A DNA stretch of 64,000 bases from Candidatus Acidulodesulfobacterium ferriphilum (GTDB taxonomy: Bacteria > SZUA-79 > Acidulodesulfobacterales > Acidulodesulfobacteraceae), in NCBI GenBank assembly GCA_004195035.1, contig SGBD01000001.1, positions 478,368 through 542,367 of the forward strand, read 5' to 3'. Below are positions 18,962 to 47,809 of this stretch, one piece after another. The stretch's first letter is position 1, and every line of letters starts with the position of its first letter. Below the pieces are notes generated by a model, which saw only the letters and a program-made list of their open reading frames with translations, was not told where the DNA came from and made no database searches. The position numbers and the translations under genes are program-made.

Positions 18962-20152
18962 TTACTCTATAACCTCGGTTATAACCCCTGCACCTACAGT
19001 ATGTCCTCCCTCTCTTATGGCAAACCTTAATTCCTTTTCGGCGGCTATCGGGGTAATGAGTTCTACGCTCATAGAAACATTGTCTCCCGGCATTACCATT
19101 TCGACGCCTTCCGGCAGCGTGCAAACCCCTGTAACATCCGTAGTCCTGAAATAGAACTGCGGACGGTAGCCGTTGAAGAACGGGGTATGGCGGCCGCCTT
19201 CTTCCTTGGTAAGAACATATGCCTCTACCTTAAACCTCTTATGGGGGGTTATGGAACCGGGTTTGGACAAAACCATGCCCCTTTCCACCTCTTCGCGCTT
19301 CTTGCCCCTTAAAAGAACGCCTATGTTGTCGCCTGCCTGTCCTTCGTCCAAGAGCTTCCTGAACATTTCTACGCCTGTTACGACTGTTTTGGATGTCGGA
19401 AGTATTCCGACAAGTTCGATTTCATCTCCGACCTTGACTATGCCTCTTTCTACCCTGCCCGTTGCAACGGTTCCCCTTCCCGATATGGAAAATACATCCT
19501 CGACCGGCATAAGGAACGGCTTATCTATATCCCTTTTCGGAAGCGGAATATATTCATCGACGGCATTCATAAGGTCAACTATCTTCTGCGTCCATTCGTT
19601 ATCCGACTCCGCCTCGAGGGCCTTAAGGGCGGAACCCTTTACTACGGGAACAGAGTCCCCGGGAAAGTTATAGGAGGTTAAAAGCTCTCTTACTTCGAGT
19701 TCGACAAGCTCGAGAAGTTCGGGGTCGTCCACCATATCGACCTTATTTAAAAATACGACTATATAGGGAACGCCGACCTGACGGGCTAAAAGTATATGCT
19801 CCCTCGTCTGGGGCATAGGGCCGTCGGCTGCGGAAACCACAAGTATGGCTCCGTCCATCTGGGCGGCGCCGGTAATCATATTCTTAACATAGTCGGCGTG
19901 TCCCGGACAGTCGACATGGGCATAGTGCCTTTTATCGGTAGAATATTCGACATGGGATGTGGCAATCGTAATACCCCTTTCCTTTTCTTCGGGCGCATTA
20001 TCAATCTGGTCATACGATTTAAAGGAAGCCTGGCCTTTTCTCGAAAGAACCTTTGTAATAGCGGCGGTTAATGTGGTCTTGCCATGGTCAACATGACCTA
20101 TCGTGCCTATATTGACATGCGGCTTTGATCTGTCAAATTTCTCTTTGGACAT
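18962..20152 (-). CDS. tuf: Elongation factor Tu, copy 1
   Basis: GTPase that brings aminoacyl-tRNA to the ribosome. The 396 residues contain GHVDHGKTT (G1), DCPGHADY (G3), NKVDMVDD (G4) and SALKALE (G5), followed by beta-barrel domains 2 and 3. It stands 20 bp after fusA. The identical stretch shared with the second copy runs 18954-20165, including the AGGAGGA ribosome-binding site and a few bases past the stop. Codon use is richer in G+C than in the neighbouring AT-rich genes, as expected for a very highly expressed gene. Confidence 0.99.
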
Positions 20153-35365: not shown

Positions 35366-36556
35366 TTACTCTATAACCTCGGTTATAACCCCTGCACCTA
35401 CAGTATGTCCTCCCTCTCTTATGGCAAACCTTAATTCCTTTTCGGCGGCTATCGGGGTAATGAGTTCTACGCTCATAGAAACATTGTCTCCCGGCATTAC
35501 CATTTCGACGCCTTCCGGCAGCGTGCAAACCCCTGTAACATCCGTAGTCCTGAAATAGAACTGCGGACGGTAGCCGTTGAAGAACGGGGTATGGCGGCCG
35601 CCTTCTTCCTTGGTAAGAACATATGCCTCTACCTTAAACCTCTTATGGGGGGTTATGGAACCGGGTTTGGACAAAACCATGCCCCTTTCCACCTCTTCGC
35701 GCTTCTTGCCCCTTAAAAGAACGCCTATGTTGTCGCCTGCCTGTCCTTCGTCCAAGAGCTTCCTGAACATTTCTACGCCTGTTACGACTGTTTTGGATGT
35801 CGGAAGTATTCCGACAAGTTCGATTTCATCTCCGACCTTGACTATGCCTCTTTCTACCCTGCCCGTTGCAACGGTTCCCCTTCCCGATATGGAAAATACA
35901 TCCTCGACCGGCATAAGGAACGGCTTATCTATATCCCTTTTCGGAAGCGGAATATATTCATCGACGGCATTCATAAGGTCAACTATCTTCTGCGTCCATT
36001 CGTTATCCGACTCCGCCTCGAGGGCCTTAAGGGCGGAACCCTTTACTACGGGAACAGAGTCCCCGGGAAAGTTATAGGAGGTTAAAAGCTCTCTTACTTC
36101 GAGTTCGACAAGCTCGAGAAGTTCGGGGTCGTCCACCATATCGACCTTATTTAAAAATACGACTATATAGGGAACGCCGACCTGACGGGCTAAAAGTATA
36201 TGCTCCCTCGTCTGGGGCATAGGGCCGTCGGCTGCGGAAACCACAAGTATGGCTCCGTCCATCTGGGCGGCGCCGGTAATCATATTCTTAACATAGTCGG
36301 CGTGTCCCGGACAGTCGACATGGGCATAGTGCCTTTTATCGGTAGAATATTCGACATGGGATGTGGCAATCGTAATACCCCTTTCCTTTTCTTCGGGCGC
36401 ATTATCAATCTGGTCATACGATTTAAAGGAAGCCTGGCCTTTTCTCGAAAGAACCTTTGTAATAGCGGCGGTTAATGTGGTCTTGCCATGGTCAACATGA
36501 CCTATCGTGCCTATATTGACATGCGGCTTTGATCTGTCAAATTTCTCTTTGGACAT
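35366..36556 (-). CDS. tuf: Elongation factor Tu, copy 2
   Basis: Second EF-Tu gene, whose protein is identical to the copy at 18962-20152 over all 396 residues. Overlapping shadow frames are also identical, so the DNA appears identical over 35358-36569 (offset 16404). It follows the four-tRNA block and precedes rpmG, as tufB does in other proteobacteria. Both copies have all G motifs and are expected to work. Confidence 0.99.
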
Positions 36557-41628: not shown

Positions 41629-42411
41629 TTAGCCCCCATGCGTAAAATTAGAATAATCAATCATAGCCCCATCCACGAATATCGTACTTCCCGTTACATA
41701 AGAAGCGTAATCGGAAACCAAAAAAGCGGCTACCCGGGCTACTTCTTCACATTCCCCCATTCTTCCAAGCGGTATTTTTTTAAGAAGATTATTAAGGGTT
41801 TCCGGATTATCCCAAACATTTTGGTTAATAGGCGTTTTAATTGCGCCGGGGGCTAAAGACATTATTCTTATTCCTAAAGAGCCGACTTCCTGCGCCATAG
41901 TTTTTGTCAGCATGGATAAGCCCGCTTTTGCAGCCGTATATCCGCTGTAACCGCTCCACGGAATATTTTCATGTACCGAAGTTATATTTAAAATTACGCC
42001 TCTTTTTTGGATTACCATATATTTTAAAGCCTCCCTGGAGCAATAAAACGGCCCGAATAGATTAATTTTTACTACCTTTTCCCACTCGGCTATATCCGAT
42101 TCCCACACAAGGGAGCGGGTTCCGTCGATTCCGGCATTATTTACGAGAATATCTATCCCACCCCATTCTTTTATAAAAGCATTCATCATTGCTTCAACCG
42201 AACCCGCATCCGAAACATCGGATTGCAAGGTAAGCACATCGCCGCCTGTCTTTTTTATCTCCGAGGCAATTTCCCCTGCCGCTTCCGCTTCCGAATGGTA
42301 ATTAAGGCCTATCATTGCCCCGTCGGCTGCAAACTCCTTGGCAATAACCTCGCCAAGCCCCGAACTTGCGCCTGTAATTAAAGCTCTCTTGCCTTTTAAA
42401 TTAATATTCAT
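41629..42411 (-). CDS. SDR-family dehydrogenase, probable glucose 1-dehydrogenase
   Basis: Rossmann-fold NAD(P)-dependent oxidoreductase of 260 residues. The cofactor loop GASSGLG is at 14-20, NNAG at 91-94, and the catalytic Asn116, Ser145, Tyr158 and Lys162 are in place. SVHENIPWSGYSGYTAAKAG matches glucose 1-dehydrogenases better than other SDRs. With the adjacent glucoamylase it could oxidise released glucose to gluconolactone; substrate is inferred from context and similarity. A 9-bp inverted repeat lies upstream at 42476-42499. Confidence 0.82.
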   Translation of the reverse strand: MNINLKGKRALITGASSGLGEVIAKEFAADGAMIGLNYHSEAEAAGEIASEIKKTGGDVLTLQSDVSDAGSVEAMMNAFIKEWGGIDILVNNAGIDGTRSLVWESDIAEWEKVVKINLFGPFYCSREALKYMVIQKRGVILNITSVHENIPWSGYSGYTAAKAGLSMLTKTMAQEVGSLGIRIMSLAPGAIKTPINQNVWDNPETLNNLLKKIPLGRMGECEEVARVAAFLVSDYASYVTGSTIFVDGAMIDYSNFTHGG

Positions 42412-42475
42412 AATTAAAATCCCAATATAATATTATTTTACCTATTTTTCTTTTATCTTAATCGCCGCCGCTTAA

Positions 42476-42517
42476 TTTATTAAATGATTCTTTAATAAAT
42501 CACATATTAAAAGTATA
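42476..42517 (-). promoter_or_regulatory. Possible promoter and operator palindrome of the SDR gene
   Basis: A perfect 9-bp inverted repeat, TTTATTAAA and TTTAATAAA with a 6-bp spacer, spans 42476-42499. A TATACT hexamer (minus strand, 42512-42517) sits just upstream, so the palindrome would lie immediately after the transcription start, a typical operator position. No strong -35 box is seen. Confidence 0.4.
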
Positions 42518-42527
42518 CACCCATTTT

Positions 42528-42697
42528 CTATTTTATGTAAGCTGAAATCGCTTCAAGGTCGTCAGCGGCTTCAAATGTCCGGATTATTTTTCGAGCCATT
42601 TCGACATTTTCTTTTCGATTTCATTTTCTTCGTAAACGCGCCCTTATTCCTCGTCCTTCAAGCCGCGTTCGATTTAGTGTATTACATATAAAAGATA
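42528..42697 (-). pseudogene. Toxin-antitoxin remnant: antitoxin 3' end and toxin 5' end
   Basis: Read on the minus strand, 42697-42584 encodes an antitoxin-like C-terminus: YVIH, stop, IERGLKDEE, stop, GRVYEENEIEKKMSKWLEK. It is broken by two in-frame TAA codons (42674-42676 and 42644-42646). An overlapping ATG at 42599 starts MARKIIRTFEAADDLEAISAYIK, the N-terminus of a ParE/RelE-type toxin, which stops at TAG (42528-42530) after 23 residues. The overlap of antitoxin end and toxin start is the normal operon layout, so this is a dead type II locus. The antitoxin 5' half is at 44194-44322. Confidence 0.75.
42644..42697. repeat. 54-bp direct repeat, copy 1
   Basis: Matches 44194-44247 at 52 of 54 positions (differences at 42648 and 42693), at a fixed spacing of 1550 bp. 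The repeat lies within the antitoxin coding region. The two copies bracket the riboswitch and permease gene. Confidence 0.9.
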
Positions 42698-42721
42698 TGA
42701 AAAAAATCCATAAAAAAATCC

Positions 42722-42751
42722 TTGACACTAATTATTTATGTATGCTAATAT
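42722..42751 (+). promoter_or_regulatory. Probable promoter of the riboswitch-permease unit
   Basis: TTGACA (42722-42727) and TAATAT (42746-42751) are 18 bp apart, about 50 bp before the riboswitch. The -35 box is perfect and the -10 box is weak. The promoter sits 25 bp inside the direct repeat, so the cassette carries its own start signal. Confidence 0.6.
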
Positions 42752-42795
42752 TTTGGCAAATCGTTCTTTGTAAATAAATATTAACCAAACTTTAT

Positions 42796-42970
42796 CTTAA
42801 AAGTTTAGGGAAACAGGTGTAAATCCTGTACTGTACCCGCAGCCGTGATAACTTATAACGGGCTTTTTATTCTAAACCGTTATTAAGAATATTCCGATAT
42901 GCCACTGGCAAGATTAATATTTGCCGGGAAGGCGGAATGTTCCCATGTTTAAGCCGGAAGACCTGCTTTT
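42796..42970 (+). ncRNA. Cobalamin riboswitch
   Basis: The leader of the NiCoT gene has the conserved pattern of adenosylcobalamin riboswitches. AGGGAAACAGGTGTAAATCC and CTGTACCCGCAGCCGTGA occur near the 5' side, GCCACTGG and GGGAAGGCGG follow, and the B12 box AGCCGGAAGACCTGCT is at 42952-42967. The ribosome-binding site GCGGGAGG is about 25 bp beyond. In this family cobalamin binding lowers expression. Boundaries are approximate. Confidence 0.93.
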
Positions 42971-43007
42971 AGATAACATTTTAATTTAATTAGCGGGAGG
43001 TCTAATT

Positions 43008-44036
43008 ATGTTTTCACGCCTTTTTAATTCTTTTAGTTTTAAACAAAGAGCCATTCTTCTTTACGCTTTATTAATTTCCTATCTGTTAGTTTCCGTAGTC
43101 ATCTTAATCGACAGATCACGAGAATTCCCTACTATGCTGAGCCTCGGCGCGCTCGCCTTTTTCTTCGGTTTAAAGCACGCCTTAGACGCCGACCATATTG
43201 CTGCGATAGATAATACCACGAGAAAAATAATGAATGACGGAAAAAAGCCCGTCGGAGTCGGATTCTTTTTTTCGCTGGGACATTCCGTTTCCGTTTTTGT
43301 CTTAACTATAATTACCATAATAATAGGAAAATTTGTGGTTAAGGCATATCCTGAATTGGGCGATATAGGCGGTTTGATAGGCACGGGCGTTTCTGCATTG
43401 TTTTTGTATCTTATCGCTTTTATGAACGTTATCATCTTAATAAGCATCATTAAGATTGCAAAGGATTTTAAAAACCTAAAAAATAAAAAAATCGAAGAAG
43501 AACTGCTGAAAAGAGGGTTTATGTTCCGGTATTTCAGCGGAATTATGAAGCTTATAACGTCGAGCTGGCAGATGTTCTTTGTAGGAGTGTTATTCGGCAT
43601 CGGCTTCGATACCGCAAGCGAGGTCGCGATACTGTCGATGTCCGCTTTATTCGCTTCATCAGGACATCCGTTTATAGATGTTATGATATTGCCTTTAATA
43701 TTTTCGGCAGGCATGATGATGCTTGACTCTACCGACGGCGTTATAATGCAGTATGCTTATAGCTGGGCTTTTTTAAATCCGGTAAGAAAAATCTTTTATA
43801 ATATCTCCATTACAAGCATTTCCGTTTTTTTGGCATTCTGCATAGGAACGATAGAATGGCTTCAGGTTATAGGAATGGAATTTAATCTGAGGGGAGAGCC
43901 GTGGGATTTTTTCAATAATGTTTCATTCGGAATGTTGGGCGGCGCTATCGCTATAATATTGACGTCCGCATGGCTTCTATCCTTAGCCGTGTATAAATTA
44001 AGCAGGGTAGAAGAAAGATATAACGGGGGCGAATGA
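43008..44036 (+). CDS. NiCoT-family nickel/cobalt permease
   Basis: High-affinity uptake of Co2+ or Ni2+ across the inner membrane. The 342 residues contain about eight hydrophobic helices, the signature HALDADHIAAID (His57, Asp60, Asp62, His63) in helix 2, FSLGHSVSVF in helix 3 and GFDTASE in the second half. The cobalamin riboswitch points to cobalt as the substrate, since cells short of B12 would raise uptake. GGGAGG precedes the ATG. The TGA stop overlaps the ATG of a broken downstream gene. Confidence 0.93.
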   Translation: MFSRLFNSFSFKQRAILLYALLISYLLVSVVILIDRSREFPTMLSLGALAFFFGLKHALDADHIAAIDNTTRKIMNDGKKPVGVGFFFSLGHSVSVFVLTIITIIIGKFVVKAYPELGDIGGLIGTGVSALFLYLIAFMNVIILISIIKIAKDFKNLKNKKIEEELLKRGFMFRYFSGIMKLITSSWQMFFVGVLFGIGFDTASEVAILSMSALFASSGHPFIDVMILPLIFSAGMMMLDSTDGVIMQYAYSWAFLNPVRKIFYNISITSISVFLAFCIGTIEWLQVIGMEFNLRGEPWDFFNNVSFGMLGGAIAIILTSAWLLSLAVYKLSRVEERYNGGE

Positions 44037-44203
44037 AAATAATGATAAATCCGACGATTGATTTTAAAAAAAACCTATAGGCTGTTTTTAACTCTGGATT
44101 ATATTTATATTCGTACAGTTTGTTTATTTGCTGCCGCCCGCGCATGCATCGGACTACAGTTCAAATTATACTGCCGGTTCTAAAGACTCTTTTTTATCCC
44201 TCG
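44033..44203 (+). pseudogene. Broken secreted-protein gene after the permease
   Basis: An ATG overlaps the permease stop (ATGA, 44033-44036) but that frame ends after MKIMINPTIDFKKNL. A shift into another frame gives LWIIFIFVQFVYLLPPAHA, a hydrophobic stretch ending in Ala-x-Ala like a signal peptide, then SDYSSNYTAGSKDSFLS. The sequence then runs into the direct repeat. The pattern suggests a periplasmic protein gene coupled to the permease that was frameshifted and cut. The family is not recognisable, and the reading is tentative. Confidence 0.4.
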
Positions 44204-44247
44204 TCCTTCAAGCCGCGTTCGATTTAGTGTATTACATATAAATGATA
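44194..44247. repeat. 54-bp direct repeat, copy 2
   Basis: Second copy of the repeat at 42644-42697 in the same orientation. It encodes the same antitoxin segment, including the same two in-frame TAA codons. Confidence 0.9.
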
Positions 44248-44322
44248 CTGTATATCTTTTAAAGTGCAGTTATCCGGCAAGCGCTTTAGAAGGTCGGCAA
44301 CTTCATTTTTGACCGTCTGCAT
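44194..44322 (-). pseudogene. Antitoxin remnant, 5' part
   Basis: An ATG at 44322, with GGAG upstream, starts MQTVKNEVADLLKRLPDN, continuing CTLKDIQYHLYVIH to a TAA at 44224-44226 after 32 residues; in the same frame beyond it IERGLKDEG is followed by another TAA. The N-terminal pattern (LLKRLPDNCTLKDIQYHLYV) matches small antitoxins paired with ParE/RelE-type toxins. The missing 3' half of the antitoxin and the toxin start are at 42528-42697, beyond the permease cassette. No gene is seen in 44323-44444. Confidence 0.72.
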
Positions 44323-44444
44323 TTTTTTCTCCGCTAAAGATTTACTCACGTTATTTATATACTGTATTTATTATAGTATTAATAATACATAATAATGGAG
44401 CCGAATTTATTTATCCGCAAATGTTGAAACCTTCCATGTTATTA

Positions 44445-46641: not shown

Positions 46642-46896
46642 CTATTTCTTATAAATGTTTCTTCTATGGCCAACGGCCTGAATGAGGAGAGACTCGTCTT
46701 TAATCGTGTAGATAACTCTATAATCTCCTATCCTGAACTTGTAAACCCCCGATAAGTCTCCTGAAAGGGGCAGGGGAATTATATTGTCGAAGCGTTCCGA
46801 GAACCACGATATTTTACTTAGTATGCGCTTTGCTACAGGCTTATCGAGCCTGCCGAGGTCTTCTAATGCGTTCTCGGTCCATTCGGCATTATGCAA
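46642..46896 (-). CDS. RelE/ParE-family toxin
   Basis: An 84-residue protein with EWTENALEDLGRLDKPVAKR near the start and FRIGDYRVIYTIKDESLLIQ toward the end, the RelE-fold pattern of mRNA-cleaving toxins. The start appears to be TTG at 46896, overlapping the antitoxin stop by eight bases, with a poorly spaced ribosome-binding site, so it is probably translated by coupling. The partner antitoxin is immediately upstream. Confidence 0.85.
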   Translation of the reverse strand: MHNAEWTENALEDLGRLDKPVAKRILSKISWFSERFDNIIPLPLSGDLSGVYKFRIGDYRVIYTIKDESLLIQAVGHRRNIYKK

Positions 46897-47086
46897 ACCT
46901 TTTCAGCGCCTCCGCGTGGGATATTTTTTTGGAAGGATTTTTTAACCTGCGTTCCAGTTCGACTTTGAATTCCTCATCAAGATGTAAACCGGAATCAGGG
47001 TCGCCAAGCAGTTCAACAACCTTTTCCTCTATTATCTGGTTCAGGTCGTCAATCGTAATGTTGTTAATTTTATCAATATTCTTCAT
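46889..47086 (-). CDS. Type II antitoxin of the RelE-type toxin
   Basis: A 65-residue acidic protein, MKNIDKINNITIDDLNQIIE at the start and SHAEALKRFA at the end. Its size, overlap with the toxin frame and upstream position mark it as the antitoxin; the DNA-binding class is not clear. TATAAT at 47093-47098 is directly before the ATG, so the mRNA could be leaderless. It begins 7 bp after the end of an integrase remnant. Confidence 0.78.
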   Translation of the reverse strand: MKNIDKINNITIDDLNQIIEEKVVELLGDPDSGLHLDEEFKVELERRLKNPSKKISHAEALKRFA

Positions 47087-47093
47087 ATGGGTA

Positions 47094-47525
47094 TTATAAC
47101 ATAAAAATTACCGGCCCGAAATTTATCTTCGCTTCTTTTTTATTTTTATTTTTTTCCAACGACATCAATGCAAGTTTTCTCTCGAGCCGGTAATTTTTAA
47201 TGTCAAGCGGCACGATTGCCGATAATGTTTTGTCTTTAAAGAAAGGAAAAAATGCCTGGCGGCAATAATTTTACGCTCTATAGCTTTTTTGGAATTACCG
47301 TTATTTTTCAAGTAATTTTGCCATGCGGCCAAAAATAAAAGGCTCTTGTTTCTATTAGTCAGCAGACTATTTTCCCTTTTAATAATATCGTTCTTAACGG
47401 ATATTTCAATCTGTTCGACAAGCTTGCGGTCGGCAGTTTTGCATGAGTGCCTGTATCTTTTTCCCCCGAACAGGAAATCGTAATAATAAAACTTGCGTAT
47501 TTTATAATAGCCGTATTTTACCCAT
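47094..47525 (-). pseudogene. Tyrosine recombinase (integrase) remnant
   Basis: Two frames together read as the N-terminal half of a phage-type integrase. MGKYGYYKIRKFYYYDFLFG with GKRYRHSCKT is the arm-binding domain, then LFLAAWQNYLKNNGNSKKAI and FFKDKTLSAIVPLDIKNYRL form the SAM-like core-binding domain. Frameshifts lie in A- and T-runs near 47516 and about 47257. The catalytic R-K-H-R-H/W-Y domain is absent; the frame ends at 47094. Its position beside tRNA-His suggests an old integrated element. A 13-bp inverted repeat (47103-47115, 47186-47198) lies within it. Confidence 0.75.
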
Positions 47526-47667
47526 CTCCACGGGCTTTTTGACTATTATATCACCCATGTAAAAATTCCGCCATAAAAAGACAAAAATGGGTAAAAAACG
47601 ATATTATTTGATTAAATATGATAAAGGTTTGAAAACAGGAAAGCCTTATGAAATATGCGGTTTTAAG

Positions 47668-47744
47668 TGGGGTGGATGACAGGTTTTGAACCTGCGACCA
47701 CCGGAGTCACAATCCGGGGCTCTACCAGCTGAGCTACATCCACC
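47668..47744 (-). tRNA. tRNA-His (GTG anticodon)
   Basis: Minus-strand cloverleaf with the extra G-1 paired to C73, acceptor GTGGATG/CATCCAC, anticodon loop TTGTGAC (anticodon GTG), T loop TTCAAAA and encoded CCA. It faces the integrase remnant with its 3' end, the usual side for integration. The strip 47526-47667 holds only a 30-codon open frame (47587-47679). Confidence 0.96.
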
Positions 47745-47755
47745 ATAAGAGAGAT

Positions 47756-47784
47756 ACTATATATTTTATTTTATCAAAATTCAA
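47756..47784 (-). promoter_or_regulatory. Promoter of tRNA-His
   Basis: TTGAAT (47779-47784) and TATAGT (47756-47761) on the minus strand are 17 bp apart, placing the transcription start about 5 bp before the tRNA 5' end. Confidence 0.55.
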
Positions 47785-47809
47785 TTTAAAATTAAATATT
47801 TTTTTAAAC

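Follow-up and report, generated by a model that had tools for sequence, protein, structure and literature searches.

A foreign riboswitch-permease fragment in a split toxin-antitoxin pseudogene: a likely repair-type insertion with a long target duplication

How does a riboswitch-controlled metal permease come to lie inside a broken toxin-antitoxin (TA) gene? The question is raised by a window of 64,000 nucleotides from Candidatus Acidulodesulfobacterium ferriphilum (contig SGBD01000001.1), in which minus-strand TA sequence borders a plus-strand cobalamin riboswitch and permease gene on both sides. A preliminary description read this arrangement as a cassette that had entered or recombined into a TA gene, leaving a long duplication behind. 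With good confidence, we favor an account in which a foreign fragment of about 1.5 kb was placed into a TA pseudogene by an illegitimate, repair-type insertion.

The antitoxin segment that was said to occur on both sides is present as a 54-nt direct repeat at positions 42644-42697 and 44194-44247, with 52 of the 54 positions identical (96%). The chance expectation for a 54-nt repeat in a 4-kb region is about 1e-19. Elsewhere in the 1.87-Mb genome there is no copy at comparable identity, and one more diverged fragment was found (C4:1036-1089). In three relatives (G008, G009 and G046), a continuous antitoxin-toxin operon spans both halves, which there overlap by the repeat. Because one continuous operon covers both, the outer pieces are two halves of a single ParE-type locus and their overlap is a duplication, as had been proposed. 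None of the examined relatives shows an empty TA locus at the same chromosomal position, and the sequence upstream of the neighboring SDR gene differs in each.

The toxin of the intact relative locus is a ParE toxin (PF05016, E=1e-16). Its start is overlapped by the upstream antitoxin, which matches no family in Pfam or NCBIfam. On the minus strand of the window, the left side carries a toxin remnant of about 22 initial codons (42528-42599) that is homologous to the intact relatives up to 42534 and is then cut. This is followed by the antitoxin 3' part (42584-42643), which overlaps the toxin start just as in the intact relatives, and by the left repeat copy (42644-42697, with a firm core of 49 bp at 42649-42697). 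The right side carries the other repeat copy (44194-44247), the antitoxin 5' half as aligned to relatives (44248-44322), and an upstream or promoter region (44323-44385) that is conserved among relatives (TATAATAAATA). Both the antitoxin start codon, at 44322, and the toxin remnant lie where they had originally been placed.

Three private substitutions are common to both repeat copies and give rise to two stop codons in frame (CAAAAA to CACTAA and GAA to TAA), neither of which occurs in any aligned relative. Because both copies carry the same two stops, the antitoxin would already have been a pseudogene at the time of the duplication, barring a later gene conversion that made the copies alike. 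With two stop codons, an insertion and a toxin cut after about 22 codons, the locus does not qualify as a functional TA pair. The two halves also differ in their nearest relatives. The left half is 93% identical to G009 versus 85% to G008, and the right half is 95% identical to G008 versus 83% to G009 (Fisher p of 0.04 and 0.02). Because the nearest relative changes from one half to the other, either the interrupted allele is a mosaic or two alleles were involved, and a mosaic is the probable reading.

The DNA between the repeats was compared with donor-type loci taken from GTDB genomes. The insert (42709-44198, plus strand) is 92% identical in DNA to positions 661-2160 of one such locus (L089), which belongs to WY4.bin64, a member of another genus. 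This match covers exactly the interval given and ends at the repeats on both sides, and the matches to two further loci (L090 and L099) also end at 44198. All four parts named in the preliminary description were recovered on the plus strand. A sigma-70-like promoter motif (TTGACA-18-TAATAT, 42722-42751) is retained from the donor. It is followed by a cobalamin riboswitch (42784-42984) that matches RF00174 with 74.1 bits against a gathering score of 31.5 and spans model positions 1-189, corresponding to the full aptamer. The next feature is an intact gene for a NicO/NiCoT-type nickel/cobalt permease of 342 amino acids (43008-44036; NicO PF03824, E=1.1e-84, residues 44-326). The last is the 5' remnant of a gene for a secreted protein (44033-44198), which contains frameshifts and breaks off after about 50 codons. 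The donor-type genomes carry the riboswitch, a permease of 342 amino acids and the intact secreted protein of 453-454 amino acids (L089, L090 and L099) in one locus.

The permease misses the NCBIfam cut-offs for the named subfamilies NicT (332.9 bits versus 450) and HoxN/HupN/NixA (313.3 versus 333.05), and it is therefore placed at the level of the family but in neither substrate subfamily. Its dN/dS ratio of about 0.04 against the donor-type copy in L089 indicates strong purifying selection, though most of the divergence from L089 predates the insertion. Because of the known biology of cobalamin riboswitches and NiCoT proteins, its likely role is the import of cobalt (or nickel), with expression shut off when B12 is plentiful. 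The unit has the same aptamer family, permease family and order as known cobalamin-riboswitch-controlled NiCoT permeases (NicO, PF03824), and it differs from the usual units only in its location and in having lost the porin-like gene that lay downstream. That gene probably codes for an outer-membrane porin, judging by the signal sequence and general character of the protein, for which a Pfam search gave no family. Signs of decay are seen in the porin remnant, with its frameshifts, and in the TA halves, with their stops. Only two cobalamin riboswitches occur in the genome, each ahead of a NiCoT-type permease; the genome also encodes CbiC of B12 synthesis. The second NiCoT paralogue (G000:C1:590882-592099, where G000 is the window genome) is 49% identical to the first and has its own cobalamin riboswitch.

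A comparison of divergence levels indicates that the permease fragment was transferred horizontally between genera. The window permease is 97% identical to that of L089 in amino acids and 93% in nucleotides (dS 0.33), whereas SecY of the window genome is only 89% and 78% identical, respectively, to those of the donor-type genomes (L089 and L090), with synonymous sites saturated. The pattern is reversed for the sister species G002, where SecY is 98% and the permease 80% identical. This discordance is joined by the permease tree, which groups the window copy with those of L089 and L090 (support 96/93), and together they argue for horizontal transfer. Because the window copy of the fragment is truncated, the direction appears to have been into the window lineage. 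A dS of 0.33 to L089 indicates that the immediate donor lies outside the sampled genomes. The duplication is young relative to the divergence from these sampled donors, because only 1 of 49 sites distinguishes one repeat core from the other, versus about 27% of synonymous sites between the window and L089 permeases. In a separate 2.6-kb stretch, the window genome (contig C4) and G008, a member of another genus (g6), are 98.6% identical, and the window and G008 lineages have therefore shared DNA recently.

The two junctions differ in character. At the right junction, the donor reads TCTTTTTTATC followed by AAAA, and the target reads TTATTC followed by CTCG, so that TTAT(C) is common to both. 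The window reads TCTTTTTTATC followed by CCTCG. The C at 44198 is that of the donor, which accounts for one of the two mismatches between the repeat copies. Because TTATC at 44194-44198 is also donor sequence, giving a junction overlap of up to 5 bp, the firm duplication is only 49 bp (44199-44247 matching 42649-42697) and at most 54 bp. On the left side, donor homology begins at 42709, after an 11-bp filler (TGAAAAAAATC, 42698-42708, plus strand) that is absent from the donor-type locus and resembles a tandem copy of the adjacent donor sequence AAAAAAATCC. An overlap at one end, a filler at the other and a duplication of the target are the marks of a repair-type insertion, and all three are present here.

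We infer the following order of steps and repair mechanism, together with the cobalt transport and B12 repression that they involve, from these comparisons. A donor fragment of about 1.5 kb, carrying the promoter, B12 riboswitch, NiCoT permease and porin-like gene, would have been acquired horizontally from another genus. It would then have been joined, with no extended homology involved, into a TA locus with stops already present in its antitoxin, by means of the short junction overlap and filler synthesis. The repair would have left 49-54 bp of the antitoxin on either side of the insert. Thereafter, with its own promoter and riboswitch, the permease would have remained a self-contained, B12-repressed importer of cobalt or nickel, maintained by selection, while the porin fragment and both TA halves would be decaying by-products.

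Two routes could produce the duplication. In the first, replication would switch template to the foreign fragment and re-enter the antitoxin about 50 bases back. In the second, a break with long staggered ends would be filled in. We lean toward template switching and regard staggered-end fill-in as possible but less probable. In favor of switching are the templated look of the filler and the presence, at two sites (G000:C4 and G008:C13), of about 50 bp from the core of this antitoxin between unrelated sequences. No Ku gene (PF02735) was found in the 97%-complete genome, so classical, Ku-dependent NHEJ is unlikely and was rejected as a route.

An alternative history involves two TA copies. A circular or linear molecule carrying the permease next to its own TA fragment could have recombined homologously into the chromosomal TA gene, with the outer parts lost later to leave the 54-bp overlap. 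The G009-like left half and G008-like right half would suit such an exchange, as would the frequent TA rearrangement seen in this bacterial family. However, the three private substitutions and two stops common to both copies, and the single difference between their cores, point to one recent ancestral copy. Moreover, the window region as query matched no TA sequence in either donor-type genome (L089 or L090), and two matching deletions would be required. We consider this history unlikely.

It is more unlikely still that the permease is native and vertically inherited, with TA fragments landing later on both sides of it. This reading draws on G002, which has its own riboswitch-permease unit (L069 4894-5937) directly upstream of the same SDR gene, with no TA sequence directly beside it. 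The same observation might also seem to match what the preliminary description held would count against an interruption, namely a close relative with the permease in this place and no antitoxin sequence around it. However, the G002 permease stands in the opposite orientation (compare window 42411-44036), belongs to another clade and is 80% identical, whereas the window permease is 97% identical to that of another genus. It is thus a different gene copy, and inheritance of the permease at this site as in G002 was rejected on the grounds of clade and orientation. In addition, the two TA halves keep the register of a single gene. The permeases of G002 and the window represent either two independent gains of a NiCoT gene beside one SDR gene or a replacement.

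The preliminary description had spoken of a cassette, and the riboswitch-permease unit might be imagined as a true mobile cassette equipped with a recombination system of its own, one directed at antitoxin genes and duplicating about 50 bp of the target. A clean repeat lies on either side of it, and a fragment with nearly equal limits (query 146-199) is embedded in a further antitoxin-like gene at G000:C4 and at G008:C13. However, the repeat-flanked unit of 1.5 kb is single in the window genome, and a search of the other genomes, which had been suggested as a check, found none. There is no transposase or recombinase gene and no terminal inverted repeat in 42698-44193. At its right end the unit breaks off within a porin gene that the donors carry whole, and there an ordinary locus continues through this point. 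No relative is encoded on viral contigs, and matches on plasmids all stay under 60%; on these grounds a phage and a plasmid were each rejected as the vehicle. Thus, the entry of foreign DNA and the duplication hold, through the end of donor homology at the repeats, the uninterrupted TA locus in relatives and the phylogeny and divergence of the permease, whereas a mobile cassette is highly improbable and was rejected for its lack of a recombinase and terminal repeats and for its truncated right end.

Finally, an artefact in which two strains or repeats were wrongly joined is conceivable for what is probably a metagenome assembly, but it is scarcely credible for a region internal to an 877-kb contig, in a genome assembled into 7 contigs, with short repeats whose copies differ by a private substitution and with orderly decay of the fragment downstream of the permease.

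The preferred reading, a repair-type insertion of foreign DNA, can be compared with known systems. Target-site duplications of insertion sequences usually range from a few to about 14 bp. Direct repeats likewise flank the window insert, but they are much longer and are not accompanied by a transposase or terminal repeats. Among insertions at double-strand breaks in vertebrates, junction overlaps measure 2-9 nt, filler sequences 1-68 nt and duplications of the target 4-21 nt (PMC2671141). The window insert resembles these in being ectopic DNA captured at a break with microhomology, a filler and a direct duplication of the target but no transposase, and it differs in that its duplication is 49-54 bp and its host is a bacterium in which no Ku was found. 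It also resembles illegitimate recombination in bacteria, including homology-facilitated illegitimate recombination (HFIR), in which linear foreign DNA is integrated with non-homologous junctions. HFIR needs one homologous end (PMC3240628), whereas the sampled donor locus shows no such anchor, and the definition given there does not include the target duplication that the window insert has. We regard the event as a clear case of a type already known, set apart by the unusual length of its duplication.

The locus is a well-resolved fossil of a useful gene crossing between genera without a mobile element, in which the donor-type locus, the uninterrupted target, both junctions and the later selection can all be read. 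A dead TA gene would be a harmless landing place, and a self-contained fragment of promoter, riboswitch and permease appears to have survived there while its neighbors decay. The long duplication in a genome where no Ku was found offers an opportunity to test for template-switching repair in uncultured bacteria of acid mines.

Related TA loci are also rearranged in other members of the family. In relatives, this same antitoxin or its TA locus breaks off at varying points, after which different TA modules follow (L069 8007-8827; L083 257-900; L084 8300-8810; L085 27-500; L121; L132). These include UPF0175 with DUF3368/PIN (G002), HicB/HicA (G003), a Gp49/HigB-like module (G010) and a nucleotidyltransferase (G007), and a probable MazF/PemK-like pair was recognized by eye in G040 and G014. 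The pattern suggests that modules have been swapped repeatedly at a single TA locus; ordinary TA clustering is a plainer alternative.

About 54 bp of the antitoxin core, bounded almost as the window repeat is, also occur as an isolated patch at G000:C4:1036-1089 (L135) and G008:C13:61603-61656 (L130). At both sites, the patch has the beginning of a further antitoxin-like gene on one side and GGGGACAGATTTATTT, a REP-like sequence, on the other, and it lies within the 2.6-kb stretch that the two genera share at 98.6% identity. The REP-like motif of the C4 patch was looked for in the window and is absent. A doubtful but broader proposal is that one antitoxin gene serves as a recurrent docking point in this bacterial family. 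Its promoter and 5' part would be repeatedly cut and joined to unrelated modules, namely several different TA systems in relatives and a metal transporter in the window, and at the joints template-switching repair would copy a core patch of about 50 bp.

A second ParE toxin gene, apparently intact, is present at 46642-46896 together with an upstream gene of 65 codons. It adjoins an integrase-like remnant (47165-47332, recognized by eye) and a tRNA-His gene (47668-47743). G002 carries a stretch matching window positions 46642-47804, followed by the truncated antitoxin and the UPF0175/PIN module. The window also contains two EF-Tu genes (18962-20152 and 35366-36556), about 16 kb apart, that code for identical proteins.
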